From: an uncultured Neomegalonema sp. | Lineage (GTDB): Bacteria > Pseudomonadota > Alphaproteobacteria > Rhodobacterales > Rhodobacteraceae | Direction of reading: 5' to 3' | NCBI GenBank assembly: GCA_938034615.1 | Contig: CALHLW010000081.1 | Span: 1 to 44,417 of the forward strand | Length of the DNA stretch: 44,417 nucleotides | Program-made: the position numbers and the translations under genes | Shown: positions 17,681-24,396 of the stretch, piece by piece | Layout: the number at the start of each line of letters is the position of its first letter | How positions within the stretch are numbered: position 1 is the stretch's first letter | The notes under the pieces: generated by a model | Told to the model about the DNA's origin: nothing | What the model saw: the letters and a program-made list of their open reading frames with translations, nothing else | The model's database searches: none

Positions 17681-20600
17681 TCACTTCCCGTCCTTGAGTT
17701 TTTGCAGGATCGCGAAGGGCGAATCCGGGTCTATGGGGCGGTTCGAGCGGGGCGGCGCGGCGCTGTGCTCGCGTTTCGGGGCGTCCCGACGTTCCTGCCC
17801 CGGTTTTCCGCGTGGCTTGCCGCCCTTGCGGTTGGCGTCCTTCGGGCGAGCGTCCGATTTTCCGCCCTCGCGCCGGGGCTTGCGGTCGCCTTCCTTGCGT
17901 GGAGGACGGTTCTCGTTCCCTTCGCGGCGCGGGCCATCACCCCGCTGACGCCGACCTTTGGGCAGGATGCGGAACGTATAGAACGTTTCCATCTCGCCCG
18001 TCGCCTGATCCGGTATTGAAACCTCGACGGTCTTGCCTTCGGCCTCCTTCGGCGCAGAGGAAGGCTGACCCATCGCCGCCATCGGTTCCTCGCCTTCCGC
18101 AACTTGAGGCGCGGCGGCATCCCCGGCAATGGGCCGTTCCGGGGCCTGATCGACATCGGTTGGTCCCTGCTCCACGGCTTCTATGGCTGCGGTATCGGCC
18201 TCGGCGAAGGCGGTCGCGGCAGGGGCGCTGTCCAGTGCCTCACTGGGGTTGTCCAGCGAAATCACCGCATCGACCGGCGCGGGCGCACCATCCTCGATTG
18301 GCGCTTCCGCAGGCTCGACGGGCAGAGGTTCGACAGGCAGAGGCTCTATGCTATCGATAGGCGAGACGAAGGCCTCGACGACCCCATCCTCCATCTCCAC
18401 CTTGACGACGGCTTGTCTCGGGGTCGTATCGGTTTTTGCGGCAGCATTCGGTTCAGGTTTGACCGGCACCGGCTTCACCTTGGCCCGCTCCGCCTTCTCG
18501 GCGCGATAGCCCATGCCTTCCATCAGCGACGCGAATTGTTCCAGCGTCAGCCCCGTGATCGACAGCATATCCGCCGTCGCCTCGAAGCCCTTGCGTGCAT
18601 CGAGGCCCCGCGTCATGTCGGCCAGCCGTTCCAGCATATCCAGCCGCAATGCCCGATCCCCGGCCTTGCGATACCCGGCCATCTGGAAATACGCCTCCGG
18701 CACGCCTTCTGGTGCCGCAAAGGTGACGACCCCTGCGGGGGGCGGGGCAGGAATCTCGTCCATCCCTTGTGCAATGCCCCACAGCACGATGCGCAGCCGC
18801 GAGGGCGCGGGCTTTAGCAATGCAGGCATGAACAGCGTGTATTGCCCGAATCGCAGCCCATGCTTGCGCATCAGCGAGCGCGTATCCTGCTCGATGGATT
18901 TGACGTCCTGCGCGATGGGGCCACGGGGCAGCACACCCAGCGCCTCAACGAGTTGAAACACCACGCCCCGTGCGATGCCGTCGATCTTCGCATCGTCGCG
19001 CAGATCGAGCAGCGGCTCGAACAGCGCCTTGATCCGCCGGTCGATCCATTGCTGCAATCGCTTCTCGGCTCGCTCGACGCTGGTGGCTTCCAGCAGGTCG
19101 TCGGCATAGACCTTCACGACCGGCGACAGGGCATCGGCGCCCTTGGTCAGCCGCCCGATAACGACGTTGTCCCAGACGATGCCGCCCTGCTCGGTGAAAC
19201 CCAGATCGCCGTCATTGCCCGCATAGAGCTTTTCGACCCGCTGGGTCAGCTCCGCAATGACGGGCGTGGTACTGGCTGCGCGCAGGGTGGTCGCATGAAC
19301 GCCCTCGGCTTCCTTGTCCGGCTGAAAGCGCAAGCCTTCGAGCCGTCCGACATGTTCGCCTTCGACGCTGACGCCCCCGTCCTTATCGACTGTGGCCACC
19401 AGTTCCTCCTTCTGTTTCAACCGCTGCATCAGCACGCTGGTGCGGCGATCGACAAATCGCTGTGTCAGTCTGGCATGGAGCGCGTCGGAAAGTCGATCCT
19501 CCACGGCGCGCGTCCGTTCTCGCCAGTGTTTGGCATCGTCCAGCCAGTCCGACCTGTTGGCGGCGTAGGTCCATGTGCGGATATAGGCAAGTCTTTTGGA
19601 CAGTACGTCGATATCGCCGTCTGTTTTATCGATTCGGATGACCTGCCCGGCCATCCAGTCGGTCGGGATCACCCGCTGCCCCGTCGTCAGGAACGTATAG
19701 ATGCGGCGCAGCAGGTCCACATGCTCGCCCACCATCGTCTTGCGGAAATCCGGTATCTGGCAGACATCCCACAGCAATCGCACGGCATTCTTGCCCTGGG
19801 CGCTCATCTGGATATCCGGGTCGGCGGCCAGCATCCGTAGCGCCATCACGTCCTCGGCCTCGCGGGTACGCATCAACCCCCGGTGCGGAGCGGGGAAATC
19901 GAGGCTGGCCAGCAGCGCCTCGGCGGTCGCGAATTGCAGGCGCGCATTGCGCCATTGCAGGTTCCCGATGGAGTGGAACTCGTGCTCCTCGATGGCCTCG
20001 ACCACTTCGGGCTCCAGCGGGCGGCAATCGGCGGTCACGCCGAAGCTGCCGTCATTCATGTACCGCCCCGCGCGCCCCGCGATCTGCGCCAGCTCCTGCG
20101 CCTGAAGATTGCGGTGCTTCCTGCCGTCGAACTTGGCCTTGCCTGCAAACCACACCGACTTCAGATCGAGGTTCAGCCCCATCCCGATGGCATCGGTCGC
20201 CACCAGATACTCGACCTCGCCCTCCTGAAACATTTTTACCTGTGCATTGCGGGTGCGAGGCGACAGCGCCCCCATCACCACCGCCGCCCCGCCTTTCTGC
20301 CGCCGGATCAATTCCGCAATCGCATAGACCTGATCCGTCGAGAACGCGACGATGGCCGAGCGTTGCGGCAACCGGCTGATCTTCTTCGACCCGGCATAGG
20401 ACAGCACCGAGAACCGCTCGCGAAAGTGAAACCGCACACCGGGGATCAACTGAGCGATCCGCTCCTTCATCGTCAGCGCGCCGAGGAACAGCGTCTCGTG
20501 CATCCCCCGCGCGTTGAGCAGTCGGTCGGTGAAGACATGCCCGCGCTCGGGGTCGGCACAGAGCTGGATTTCATCCACTGCAAGGAACCCGGCTCCCGTC

Positions 20601-20866
20601 TCCACCGGCATCGATTCGACGGTACAGATGAAATATTTCGCGTTCGGGGGGACGATCTTCTCCTCCCCCGTCACCAGTGCGACGACCGATGGACCCCGCA
20701 GCTCGACACAGCGGTCATAGACTTCCCGTGCCAGCAGGCGCAACGGAAAGCCCATCACGCCGGTCTTGTGACCCAGCATCCGTTCGATGGCATAGGTCGT
20801 CTTGCCGGTATTGGTGGGGCCGAGCACCGCCGTAACGGTATGATCCCTCGGGTGGGAGGCGGACAT
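17681..20866 (-). CDS. SUV3-like DEAD/DEAH helicase
   Basis: AVLGPTNTGKTTYAIERMLGHKTGVMGFPLRLLAREVYDRC Walker A, DEIQLCADPERGHVFTDRLL, GRAGRYMNDGSFGVT; basic C-terminal tail. Confidence 0.9.
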   Translation of the reverse strand: MSASHPRDHTVTAVLGPTNTGKTTYAIERMLGHKTGVMGFPLRLLAREVYDRCVELRGPSVVALVTGEEKIVPPNAKYFICTVESMPVETGAGFLAVDEIQLCADPERGHVFTDRLLNARGMHETLFLGALTMKERIAQLIPGVRFHFRERFSVLSYAGSKKISRLPQRSAIVAFSTDQVYAIAELIRRQKGGAAVVMGALSPRTRNAQVKMFQEGEVEYLVATDAIGMGLNLDLKSVWFAGKAKFDGRKHRNLQAQELAQIAGRAGRYMNDGSFGVTADCRPLEPEVVEAIEEHEFHSIGNLQWRNARLQFATAEALLASLDFPAPHRGLMRTREAEDVMALRMLAADPDIQMSAQGKNAVRLLWDVCQIPDFRKTMVGEHVDLLRRIYTFLTTGQRVIPTDWMAGQVIRIDKTDGDIDVLSKRLAYIRTWTYAANRSDWLDDAKHWRERTRAVEDRLSDALHARLTQRFVDRRTSVLMQRLKQKEELVATVDKDGGVSVEGEHVGRLEGLRFQPDKEAEGVHATTLRAASTTPVIAELTQRVEKLYAGNDGDLGFTEQGGIVWDNVVIGRLTKGADALSPVVKVYADDLLEATSVERAEKRLQQWIDRRIKALFEPLLDLRDDAKIDGIARGVVFQLVEALGVLPRGPIAQDVKSIEQDTRSLMRKHGLRFGQYTLFMPALLKPAPSRLRIVLWGIAQGMDEIPAPPPAGVVTFAAPEGVPEAYFQMAGYRKAGDRALRLDMLERLADMTRGLDARKGFEATADMLSITGLTLEQFASLMEGMGYRAEKAERAKVKPVPVKPEPNAAAKTDTTPRQAVVKVEMEDGVVEAFVSPIDSIEPLPVEPLPVEPAEAPIEDGAPAPVDAVISLDNPSEALDSAPAATAFAEADTAAIEAVEQGPTDVDQAPERPIAGDAAAPQVAEGEEPMAAMGQPSSAPKEAEGKTVEVSIPDQATGEMETFYTFRILPKGRRQRGDGPRREGNENRPPRKEGDRKPRREGGKSDARPKDANRKGGKPRGKPGQERRDAPKREHSAAPPRSNRPIDPDSPFAILQKLKDGK

Positions 20867-21037
20867 GAGGGCAGCCTTTGGGGCGGGGTGGGTCTGGACG
20901 CCTATGTAGAGCGTCAGGTCAGCAGGTACAACGGAGTGGGTAACCTAAGCAATGCGACCGATCCGCGACACTCGTTCGAACATGGGCCGAATAGGAACAA
21001 CATCGTGGAGTGATCTTCCAAGGCTTCTTCTCTCACG

Positions 21038-21205
21038 TTACCGAACCTCAAGTGCCCGTACTTCGCCACTGTCGGTGCCGAAAACCACGATAGCGCCATC
21101 GGTATACAATTGCGTCGAAACGCGCTTGCCAAAGCTGCGACTTGTTTCATCACCCCGGTACAAGTGACGTATGCTGATTTTACCGCGAATAGTGCCGACA
21201 GCTGA
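21038..21205 (-). pseudogene. Orphan C-terminal fragment of an unidentified protein, truncated at the IS remnant
   Basis: Open minus reading FSAVGTIRGKISIRHLYRGDETSRSFGKRVSTQLYTDGAIVVFGTDSGEVRALEVR* with protein-like composition; stop at 21038-21040; no start codon context before transposase-derived sequence begins. Confidence 0.45.
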
Positions 21206-21396
21206 AAACCTGGCAAAAGTGGTTCAACGTTGCCGTTTCTCCGATCCGTTCCGGGGTCGAGCGGGTCTTCGGCAAAAGCAAGACGGACGACGGGCTCGGC
21301 AAGACCCGTTACTTCGGCGAAGCGCGCGTCGCAGCCGATCATCTCACCTTCGCCATGGCCTACAACCTGCGCCGGGCGTTGAGTTTGAGCGGATAA
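21193..21396 (+). pseudogene. C-terminal remnant of an IS5-type DDE transposase
   Basis: Frame +1 reads RQLKTWQKWFNVAVSPIRSGVERVFGKSKTDDGLGKTRYFGEARVAADHLTFAMAYNLRRALSLSG*, matching the DDE C-terminal E-region and AYNLRR tail; stop codon TAG at 21190 upstream. Confidence 0.75.
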
Positions 21397-21620
21397 ATGA
21401 CAGGAGGAGTCCGTCCAAAAAAGTGCATTCCCGCGCAAAAACAGCCCAAAACGGGCATCAAAGACCGGCGAGCGCCGTCAATGAACCGAAAAATCAGGCC
21501 AAAGAAGCCTGACAAACGACTAAACGGGGATTGTTCAGATGGCTCCGTTCATTCTGCGATCCGAAACGATAACCGCAGAGTGGGGCCACCTGCAGCAGTA
21601 AAATTGAGAAACAGGACATT

Positions 21621-21659
21621 TTACTTGATCTTCGACAGAAGCTCCGGCGCGGTTACGGA
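21621..21659 (-). pseudogene. Fossil C-terminus of a second delta-class carbonic anhydrase gene
   Basis: Minus reading SVTAPELLSKIK*, compared with LVTAPELLSQIE* at the end of the intact gene at 22535; 28/37 nt identical, most differences at third codon positions. Confidence 0.6.
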
Positions 21660-22456
21660 TAGGACGGCTTCAAACCCAGCATTTCGTCCAACTGCCGCCC
21701 CAGCCAGCCATGGGGAATGAAATGCCCGCCCTTGTGCAGATCGAGGATCACGGTCCCTTGCGCGCAATCCCAGCGATAGCGGTCGAAGGACAGCCAATCG
21801 ACGATCTTATATGGGCCGTCATCTTTCGTTGTCCCGCATCCCAGCCTGCCGCGCCACAGCCTGACCGGGTTCAACCGATCCCCGTTCGGCCCGGCGGGAA
21901 ACCGCATCACCGTGTCCGACGTGCCATGGACATGGCGCACCACGGCGGGGGCTTCCGGGCAGGTTTCCGACTGGCGCAGGGTGCCCGCCACGGCGAACAG
22001 CCCCCGGATATCATTGCCGCTTTCACAGACGTAGCGCCATGCCATCGCAGAGCCGAAGGAATAGCCGGAGATGAAGATGTTGTCCCGGTCGACCGGATAC
22101 CGCTTCATCACGTCCCGCAGTACCGCATCCGCAAAATCCACATCCTCGCGCCCGCCCCGGAACCGCCACGTCTTGTTCCGCCCGTTCGGCGCGATCAGCA
22201 GCACGCCCCGGCGCTTCGTATGCCCTGAAATCCGCTCATGATTGATCGGCAGTTTGCCCGTCCGCGCCCAACCGTGAAAATGCAGCATAACCGGCAAAGG
22301 ATTGGCCCCGTCCCAGCCGTCCGGTTCCCTGACGTGATAGGACCGCTCGCCCACCGGGCAGGGCGTATTCAGATGGCAAGGATTGCCGGGCAAGGCCGAC
22401 CCCTGGGCGGCGGCATTCGGGGCGAAAAGGGCGAAGATCAGGACGATGGTTCTCAT
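21653..22456 (-). CDS. PHB depolymerase / LpqC-like esterase (secreted)
   Basis: Signal MRTIVLIFALFAPNAAAQ; PVMLHFHGWARTG, FISGYSFGSAMAWRYVCE nucleophile, VRHVHGTSDTVM, HKGGHFIPHGW. Confidence 0.85.
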   Translation of the reverse strand: MRTIVLIFALFAPNAAAQGSALPGNPCHLNTPCPVGERSYHVREPDGWDGANPLPVMLHFHGWARTGKLPINHERISGHTKRRGVLLIAPNGRNKTWRFRGGREDVDFADAVLRDVMKRYPVDRDNIFISGYSFGSAMAWRYVCESGNDIRGLFAVAGTLRQSETCPEAPAVVRHVHGTSDTVMRFPAGPNGDRLNPVRLWRGRLGCGTTKDDGPYKIVDWLSFDRYRWDCAQGTVILDLHKGGHFIPHGWLGRQLDEMLGLKPSYP

Positions 22457-22534
22457 GGCCCCCTCATGCCGCCCTACGCCATTAGGTGTCACCTCACGTC
22501 TGCGCTATCGGCGTCACGCGAATGCCGCTCACGC

Positions 22535-23326
22535 CTACTCGATCTGCGACAGTAGTTCCGGTGCCGTCACCAACTGGCGGACGCCGTGGGCGTGGTCTTC
22601 CTCGAAGACGTTTCCGTTCTCCGCCCACTCATGCAGCGAGGAGATGTCGATCTTAGCGCATTGCGGACGCACACTCCAGGTAACCTGCATCGGCGAGCAG
22701 GCCTGCTGCGTATAGCTTGGCCCTGTCGTCGAGCCTGCAAACACCACTGGCTCTCCGGTCCCTGAGGGCAGGCTCTTCGCTTGATGGAACCCGTCCACGA
22801 CGTTCCCCGCATAGGCGAAATCAGCGTAATCGAGCGCGTTCTCCGGGTCGTTCACTACGAGGAAGACCTGCGTTTCCACCCGCAGGGCCGGGTTCGCACA
22901 GGCATCGCTGAGGCACGACCCCAGCCCCTTGCCCGGATTGACCTCGCATGACGTATGCACCCAATGCACCTCAATGGTATCTCCCGGCACGATGCCCTTG
23001 TAGGCACCCTTGCCGCCCGAAGGGTCTGTGAGTTCGGCGGTGGTCAGGTCATCCGACCCGTTGCACTTCCACCCGCCATGGTCGCCCGCACCGCCCGAAA
23101 CCGAGAACCCCGGCCCTTTGTGCTCGGCATTCACATGCAGGTGGATGTTGCACAGGTTCAATTCGGATGCTTTCGGTGCCAGCGCGAGGACACGGGCGTT
23201 CAGCCCGCCGGTCTTGGTAATGTCACGCGGCGTCTGTGGCCCATAACCTGTACACATCTCTGCCATGGCGGGTGCCGCGACGAGAAGCGCTCCGAGGATC
23301 GCAGGAAGGAAAACGGTTTTGTTCAT
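22535..23326 (-). CDS. Delta-class carbonic anhydrase (secreted)
   Basis: Signal MNKTVFLPAILGALLVAAPAMA, then EMCTGYGPQTPRDI, LCNIHLHVNAEHKGPGFS, IEVHWVHTSCEVNPGKGLGSCLSDACANPALRVETQVFLVVND, matching the CA_like/delta-CA family pattern. Confidence 0.75.
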   Translation of the reverse strand: MNKTVFLPAILGALLVAAPAMAEMCTGYGPQTPRDITKTGGLNARVLALAPKASELNLCNIHLHVNAEHKGPGFSVSGGAGDHGGWKCNGSDDLTTAELTDPSGGKGAYKGIVPGDTIEVHWVHTSCEVNPGKGLGSCLSDACANPALRVETQVFLVVNDPENALDYADFAYAGNVVDGFHQAKSLPSGTGEPVVFAGSTTGPSYTQQACSPMQVTWSVRPQCAKIDISSLHEWAENGNVFEEDHAHGVRQLVTAPELLSQIE

Positions 23327-23463: not shown

Positions 23464-24396
23464 ATGACGACCACCCGACCGTCCGTCTTCCCCGTAAACG
23501 CCGTTATCCTTGGCGGTGGCACGATGGGGGAGGGCATCGCTGCGATCTTTGCCGCTGGCGGCTGGCCCGTTCAGGTTGTCGAACCCCATGGTACAGAGGT
23601 CGCGGACCGGATCGCCGATTGCGCCACCCAACGCGGTGGGGCAAAGCCCGCAGTAGCCGTTCTTTCCTCTCTGGATGCTGTAAACTGGGCGGGCGTCTCC
23701 CTTGTCGTGGAATGCGTCCCCGAAGACCTCGCCATCAAGCGCGCCGTCTTCGCCGATCTCACCCGGCTGGCCCCGCGGGAAACCCTGCTGACAAGCAATT
23801 CCTCCAGCTTCCCGATCAGTGCCATCGCTGAAGGGCTGGAAATGCGAGGGCGCATGGCGGGGCTGCACTTCTTCATGCCCGCCCATCTCGTGCCGTTGGT
23901 CGAGGTGGTCAGCGGCCCCGATACGACCCCCGAAACCGCCGCCTCATTATGTGAAACCATGACCGCCCTCGCCATGCGCCCTGTCCATGTGAAGAAAGAC
24001 ATCCCTGGCTTCCTCGCCAACCGGATGCAGCACGCCCTGATGCGCGAGGCCCTTTCGCTGGCCGAACGGGGCATCGCCAGCGCCGAGGATATCGACGCCG
24101 CCGTTCAATACGGCTTCGGAATGAGGTTTCTGGGGGCGGGGCCGTTCCTGCAAAAGGATATCGCGGGCCTCGATATCCACCACGCCGCCGCCACAACTAT
24201 CTACCCTGATCTGTGCAATGACATTGTTCCTGTCCCCTTTATTGCAGAGCGGGCCGTGCGAGGCGATCATGGCATGAAATCCGGTCGCGGCTTCTACCGT
24301 TGGACTGCCGACACGGCACGGGCAACACGGGCGCGGTATGAAAAGGCGCTGGTGAAAGCGCTGGCGGTTCTTGGAAATAATCGGGAAGGGCGTTGA
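23464..24396 (+). CDS. 3-hydroxyacyl-CoA dehydrogenase family protein
   Basis: VILGGGTMGEGIAAIFAAGGWPVQVVE Rossmann motif; TSNSSSFPISAIAEG, GLHFFMPAHLVPLVEVVSGPDT, HVKKDIPGFLANRMQHALMREALSL. Confidence 0.88.
   Translation: MTTTRPSVFPVNAVILGGGTMGEGIAAIFAAGGWPVQVVEPHGTEVADRIADCATQRGGAKPAVAVLSSLDAVNWAGVSLVVECVPEDLAIKRAVFADLTRLAPRETLLTSNSSSFPISAIAEGLEMRGRMAGLHFFMPAHLVPLVEVVSGPDTTPETAASLCETMTALAMRPVHVKKDIPGFLANRMQHALMREALSLAERGIASAEDIDAAVQYGFGMRFLGAGPFLQKDIAGLDIHHAAATTIYPDLCNDIVPVPFIAERAVRGDHGMKSGRGFYRWTADTARATRARYEKALVKALAVLGNNREGR

Follow-up and report, generated by a model that had tools for sequence, protein, structure and literature searches.

A 12-codon remnant of a second delta-carbonic-anhydrase gene behind an esterase gene in an uncultured Neomegalonema genome

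Homology-facilitated illegitimate recombination (HFIR) is known in naturally competent bacteria and in E. coli (PMC3240628, PMC6382021). HFIR events insert about 1 kb of DNA and delete a similar length, mostly with 3 to 10 bp of microhomology (PMC3240628). In Vibrio cholerae, the displacement of T6SS effector genes has been proposed to leave behind either orphaned immunity genes or the 3' end of an effector shifted back, and the same has been proposed for Rhs loci (PMC5361080). Full-text literature searches for delta-class carbonic anhydrases (CAs) in alphaproteobacteria returned nothing useful.

Here we describe a locus of an uncultured Neomegalonema sp. that appears to carry a comparable scar. 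The window, by which we mean the whole 44,417-nucleotide stretch of DNA analyzed, holds an esterase gene, a remnant of a CA gene, and a transposase C terminus between an intact delta-CA gene and a helicase gene (Table 1). As we read it, the locus would resemble an HFIR product in having about 1 kb of foreign DNA beside a homologous anchor, a lost resident part, and a probable microhomology of 3 to 10 bp at the illegitimate end, but it differs from the described cases in being reconstructed from one end product, with the donor unseen and no experiment. The likeness to T6SS and Rhs displacement would lie in a newcomer gene that used a homologous upstream part as its anchor, pushed the resident 3' end downstream, and orphaned it. 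Unlike those systems, this is an ordinary metabolic locus, encoding a carbonic anhydrase and an esterase, with a 12-codon orphan that has no retained function and with no repeated array. The scar is an unusually clear but ordinary kind of gene displacement event; it records such an event in a little-studied genus and reveals no new system.

Table 1. Features of the CA locus, numbered from the first nucleotide of the window
Feature	Position	Strand	Basis
Suv3-like helicase, the gene after CA in relatives	17681..20866	-	Profile match and relatives' gene order
IS5/IS1182-type transposase, C-terminal remnant of 65 aa lying between CA remnant and helicase	21199..21396	+	NCBIfam
Two terminator-like stem-loops downstream of esterase and CA remnant	21444..21513	-	Consensus scan only
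Orphan 3' end of a second delta-CA gene, last 12 codons and stop	21621..21659	-	29/39 nt to intact tail
Right junction, where TATCC of the esterase coding end meets GTAACC from the CA	21649..21659	-	Homologue esterase ends and CA sequences
Intact 267-aa esterase, a relative of short-chain-length PHA depolymerases	21653..22456	-	NF050058, Abhydrolase_2
Conserved block GATAGCGCAGACGTGAGGTGACAC upstream of esterase	22486..22509	-	Aligned upstream regions of G004, G009, G001, and partly G006
Left junction zone, CA stop to esterase upstream block	22510..22534	-	CA downstream regions compared
Intact delta-CA gene (PF10563)	22535..23326	-	Pfam 6.2e-67
3-Hydroxyacyl-CoA dehydrogenase (hcdh), divergent neighbor of CA in relatives	23464..24396	+	Profile match and relatives' gene order

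The intact CA is a clear member of the delta class, scoring 225.6 bits against PF10563 (CA_like; cut-off, 26.3), and is the single match in its genome. On the minus strand its tail (22573-22535) reads TTGGTGACGGCACCGGAACTACTGTCGCAGATCGAGTAG, translated as LVTAPELLSQIE and a stop. The 39-nt remnant (minus strand, 21659-21621) reads TCCGTAACCGCGCCGGAGCTTCTGTCGAAGATCAAGTAA, or SVTAPELLSKIK and a stop, and its first codon sits within the junction with the esterase. The preliminary description, which gave the sequence and coordinates of both tails exactly, counted 28 matches in 37 nt; the similarity holds, and our recount is 29 of 39. With both strands of the window considered, the second-best site for the CA tail matches at 23 of 39 positions, as does the best among 206,000 positions of background loci, and 60 simulated windows (second-order Markov) reached a maximum of 25, none of them attaining at least 29. 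At the peptide level the remnant scores 35.0 bits against a CA-tail profile, on which most genuine tails score between 31 and 47 and the best non-CA among 79,146 stop-terminated peptides reaches 16.2; it carries the C-terminal signature of the CA subfamily, [L]VTAxELLSxIx-stop, in frame with its stop, matching the C-terminal end of close homologues of the intact CA. A degenerate tail motif, GTNACNGCNNNNGARCTNCTNTCN, has exactly two matches in the 3.75-Mb genome, both at this locus. Among 13 genus-mates it is found only in G001, G002, and G006, once in each and within the CA gene, and it gave no match in the controls or in 12 Mb of simulated sequence. Judged by its sequence, the 39-bp scrap is a real tail of a second delta-CA gene, and the case shows that sequence and relatives together allow even a 12-codon scrap to be identified confidently. 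It is too short for any domain or activity and has no likely function.

The differences between the two tails have the pattern of coding sequence. We compared codons 2 to 13 (36 nt), leaving out the first codon because it lies within the junction. Eight of the 36 nt differ, and six of the eight differences fall in the third position of a codon (p = 0.02); the two replaced residues fall at positions that vary between species in the CA family. When eight changes were placed at random in a neutral-decay simulation, 10 of 12 residues were kept, as they are here, in just 0.65% of runs. The third base is the same in four of the nine codons with a shared residue, and third-base agreement between the whole intact CA and the CAs of other species ranges from 0.41 to 0.63. 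Since most differences are at third positions, as they are between the functional CAs of different species, the remnant is probably what is left of a once-functional, diverged delta-CA and not a decayed recent copy. Before its death it seems to have been evolving as a working CA over a time similar to that separating the CAs of different species. The earlier proposals of a fossil C terminus of a second delta-CA gene, borne out by the identity of the tails and the uniqueness of the motif in the genome, and of homologous coding sequence as opposed to a recent copy both stand.

The tail nearest to the remnant is that of Nisaea denitrificans (31 of 39 nt), followed by that of a Robiginitomaculum metagenome-assembled genome (MAG) (30), the intact copy and several others (29), and G002 (28 of 39). 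A length of only 36 to 39 nt is too short for placement in a phylogeny, and the remnant is about equally far from several CAs. No similarity between remnant and intact copy extends past the stop codons. Two simple origins were rejected on these grounds: a recent duplication in situ, given 10 differences in 39 nt, their codon-like pattern, and nothing in common past the stop, and a transposon insertion with target duplication, given direct repeats that are not near-identical (the same 10 of 39 nt differ) and do not go on past the stop.

The esterase matches NCBIfam NF050058 (8.6e-16) and Pfam Abhydrolase_2 (1.8e-5). With 58 bits against the NF050058 cut-off of 150 it falls outside the extracellular short-chain-length PHA depolymerases proper, and its sequence suggests only an esterase-like relative of them. 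Homologues with 76 to 81% identity are present in G001, G004, G006, and G009, genomes among which the neighborhood of the esterase differs. In these four genus members, taken together, the esterase family occupies loci L135 (7923-8726), L136 (8177-9019), L134 (8195-8998), and L133 (4250-5053). No close homologue was found anywhere in G002, G007, or G013, the closest relatives of the window, and all inner forks of the esterase tree are open. Despite the differing gene neighborhoods, a block resembling GATAGCGCAGACGTGAGGTGACAC is kept upstream of the esterase at all four loci; in the window it reads GATAGCGC...GTGAGGTGACAC from 22509 down to 22486. This promoter-like block, a possible promoter or regulator site, has moved along with the esterase. 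Between it and the CA stop, the left junction zone has no evident similarity to the regions downstream of the CA in relatives.

The right junction falls within the stop codon of the esterase. Its close homologues end in ...YP, then TGA, then unrelated DNA. In the window the stop is TAA (21653-21655), which is common to the esterase and to the codons for Val and Thr in the CA tail, where GTA ACC GCG supplies it. The overlap of the remnant with the 3' end of the esterase, noted in the preliminary description, consists of this stop codon and the bases just before it. Relatives have CCGTGA(C) or CCCTGA at the end of the esterase, and CAs have CTCGTGACC or TTGGTGACG at the matching site; taken together, these sequences make an overlap of 4 to 6 nt at the joint likely. 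The probable microhomology of 4 to 6 nt is partly reconstructed, because the present junction reads GTAA: at least GTAA is common to both sides today, and CGTGAC is derived from the esterase ends of relatives and the CAs. The insert in the window measures about 0.88 kb, with this probable overlap of 4 to 6 nt.

The nearest named relatives of the window are MAGs of uncultured Neomegalonema. In the helicase tree, the window groups first with G002 as its sister (99/97), next come G007 and G001, and then G013. Their common gene order is hcdh, divergent from a single CA, and then the Suv3-like helicase, with no esterase at the CA-helicase site in any of the four. The CA stands directly before the helicase in G007 (L129) and G013 (L128). 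The gap is occupied by a cupin-like gene in G001 (L131) and by a PEP-CTERM-like gene in G002 (L130/L151, pieced together from two contig ends that overlap), both named from reading the translation and not from a profile search. The contents of the gap (window 20867-22534) thus vary in the genus from none through a cupin-like or a PEP-CTERM-like gene to the esterase and the insertion sequence (IS) remnant of the window, and the gap looks as if it were a favored insertion place.

No genus genome examined holds a second delta-CA, and no second CA lies within 8 kb at 80 further CA loci. Of the two origins offered in the preliminary description, tandem delta-CA paralogues do not agree with these counts or with the relatives' order of a CA before the helicase without an esterase, and recombination of the esterase gene into a delta-CA gene, leaving only its last codons, fits. 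Two outcomes had been named there as counting against the fossil: that no relative has a second CA, which is what we found, and that the similarity is no better than that of shuffled sequence, which it far exceeds. Accordingly, the remnant stands and the tandem array does not.

We lean, with moderate confidence, toward an account in which short-homology illegitimate recombination joined an incoming CA-esterase fragment to the resident CA within its final codons. A formerly functional delta-CA would have stood in front of the helicase, the 39 bp being its dead 3' end. A fragment with a delta-CA followed by the esterase and its own upstream block may then have arrived from a related lineage and paired by homology at its CA/hcdh end, a side that is homologous to relatives and on which the crossover point is not visible; sliding identity likewise displayed no crossover or phylogenetic break inside the intact CA. 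At the far end, the stop region of the esterase, TATCCGTGA(C), would have matched CGTGAC/GTGACC within the resident CA's codons for Val and Thr; the simplest account is illegitimate joining at this short match in one event of HFIR. The resident CA would have been replaced except for its last 12 codons, now untranslated behind the esterase. A later change of the esterase stop from TGA to TAA is presumed, and we infer both the direction of the replacement and a donor with a CA next to an esterase. That adjacency was not found in 61 genomes or at the 80 CA loci, an absence that is not decisive in a genus so sparsely sampled. At some point the IS remnant would also have come to sit between the CA remnant and the helicase. 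Read this way, the remnant is a worked example of the scar expected from homology-anchored illegitimate recombination.

A less probable but serious alternative is that two diverged delta-CAs, either paralogues or with the second gained by transfer or single-crossover integration, once flanked the esterase, and that a deletion running from the esterase stop into the second CA, guided by GTGAC, spared only its final 12 codons. It predicts the same end structure without requiring a CA-esterase donor, and the divergence between the tails fits an old paralogue or xenologue. Against it stand the lack of any genus genome with two delta-CAs, the 80 loci with no second CA within 8 kb, and the larger number of steps (gain of a CA, gain of the esterase, and deletion). 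The remnant nonetheless serves as a warning that a "tandem paralogue" is not the sole reading of such scars.

A broader form of the replacement account is doubtful: that the CA-helicase gap serves the genus as a recurrent landing place, with the CA end anchoring recombination that exchanges accessory genes and leaves scraps of resident CA alleles as scars recording earlier swaps. We consider it improbable that the esterase cassette brought the CA scrap along from an earlier site before or inside another CA, the whole unit then inserting between CA and helicase. The unit evidently moves, as its varied neighborhoods and conserved upstream block attest, and no single CA of the genus stands out as the nearest to the remnant, but landing beside the same gene family would be a coincidence, and no esterase homologue in other genomes has a CA tail attached. 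An assembly chimera, in which a false joint between esterase and CA tail arose from merging the reads of two strains that differed in their CA allele, might be suspected in a draft genome of 263 contigs that alone has this arrangement; a joint that coincides precisely with the stop codon of the esterase and leaves its reading frame whole, an estimated contamination of 0.29%, and the continuation of the region to the conserved region upstream of the helicase make it quite improbable. Chance similarity, rejected with scores far above every null tested, or conservation of a DNA element (a binding site or terminator, for example) in place of coding homology has in its favor the mere 39 bp of the remnant, but is scarcely credible given the codon-periodic differences and a motif confined to CA ends.

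Several further observations concern the surroundings of the CA. The transposase remnant matches NCBIfam NF033581 (2.5e-9) and NF033551 (2.4e-8) and has no further copy in the genome; a plasmid source for it was rejected after a PLSDB search gave no match. The scanned region contains four terminator-like sites versus 2.5 expected. The delta-CAs of the genus (L003-L013) fall into two kinds, about 68 to 81% and about 45 to 54% identical to that of the window, with no genome holding both. On contig C11 of G006 (L157/L167), hcdh adjoins the helicase without a CA, and the CA lies on another contig, which suggests relocation of the CA itself or its loss from this site.
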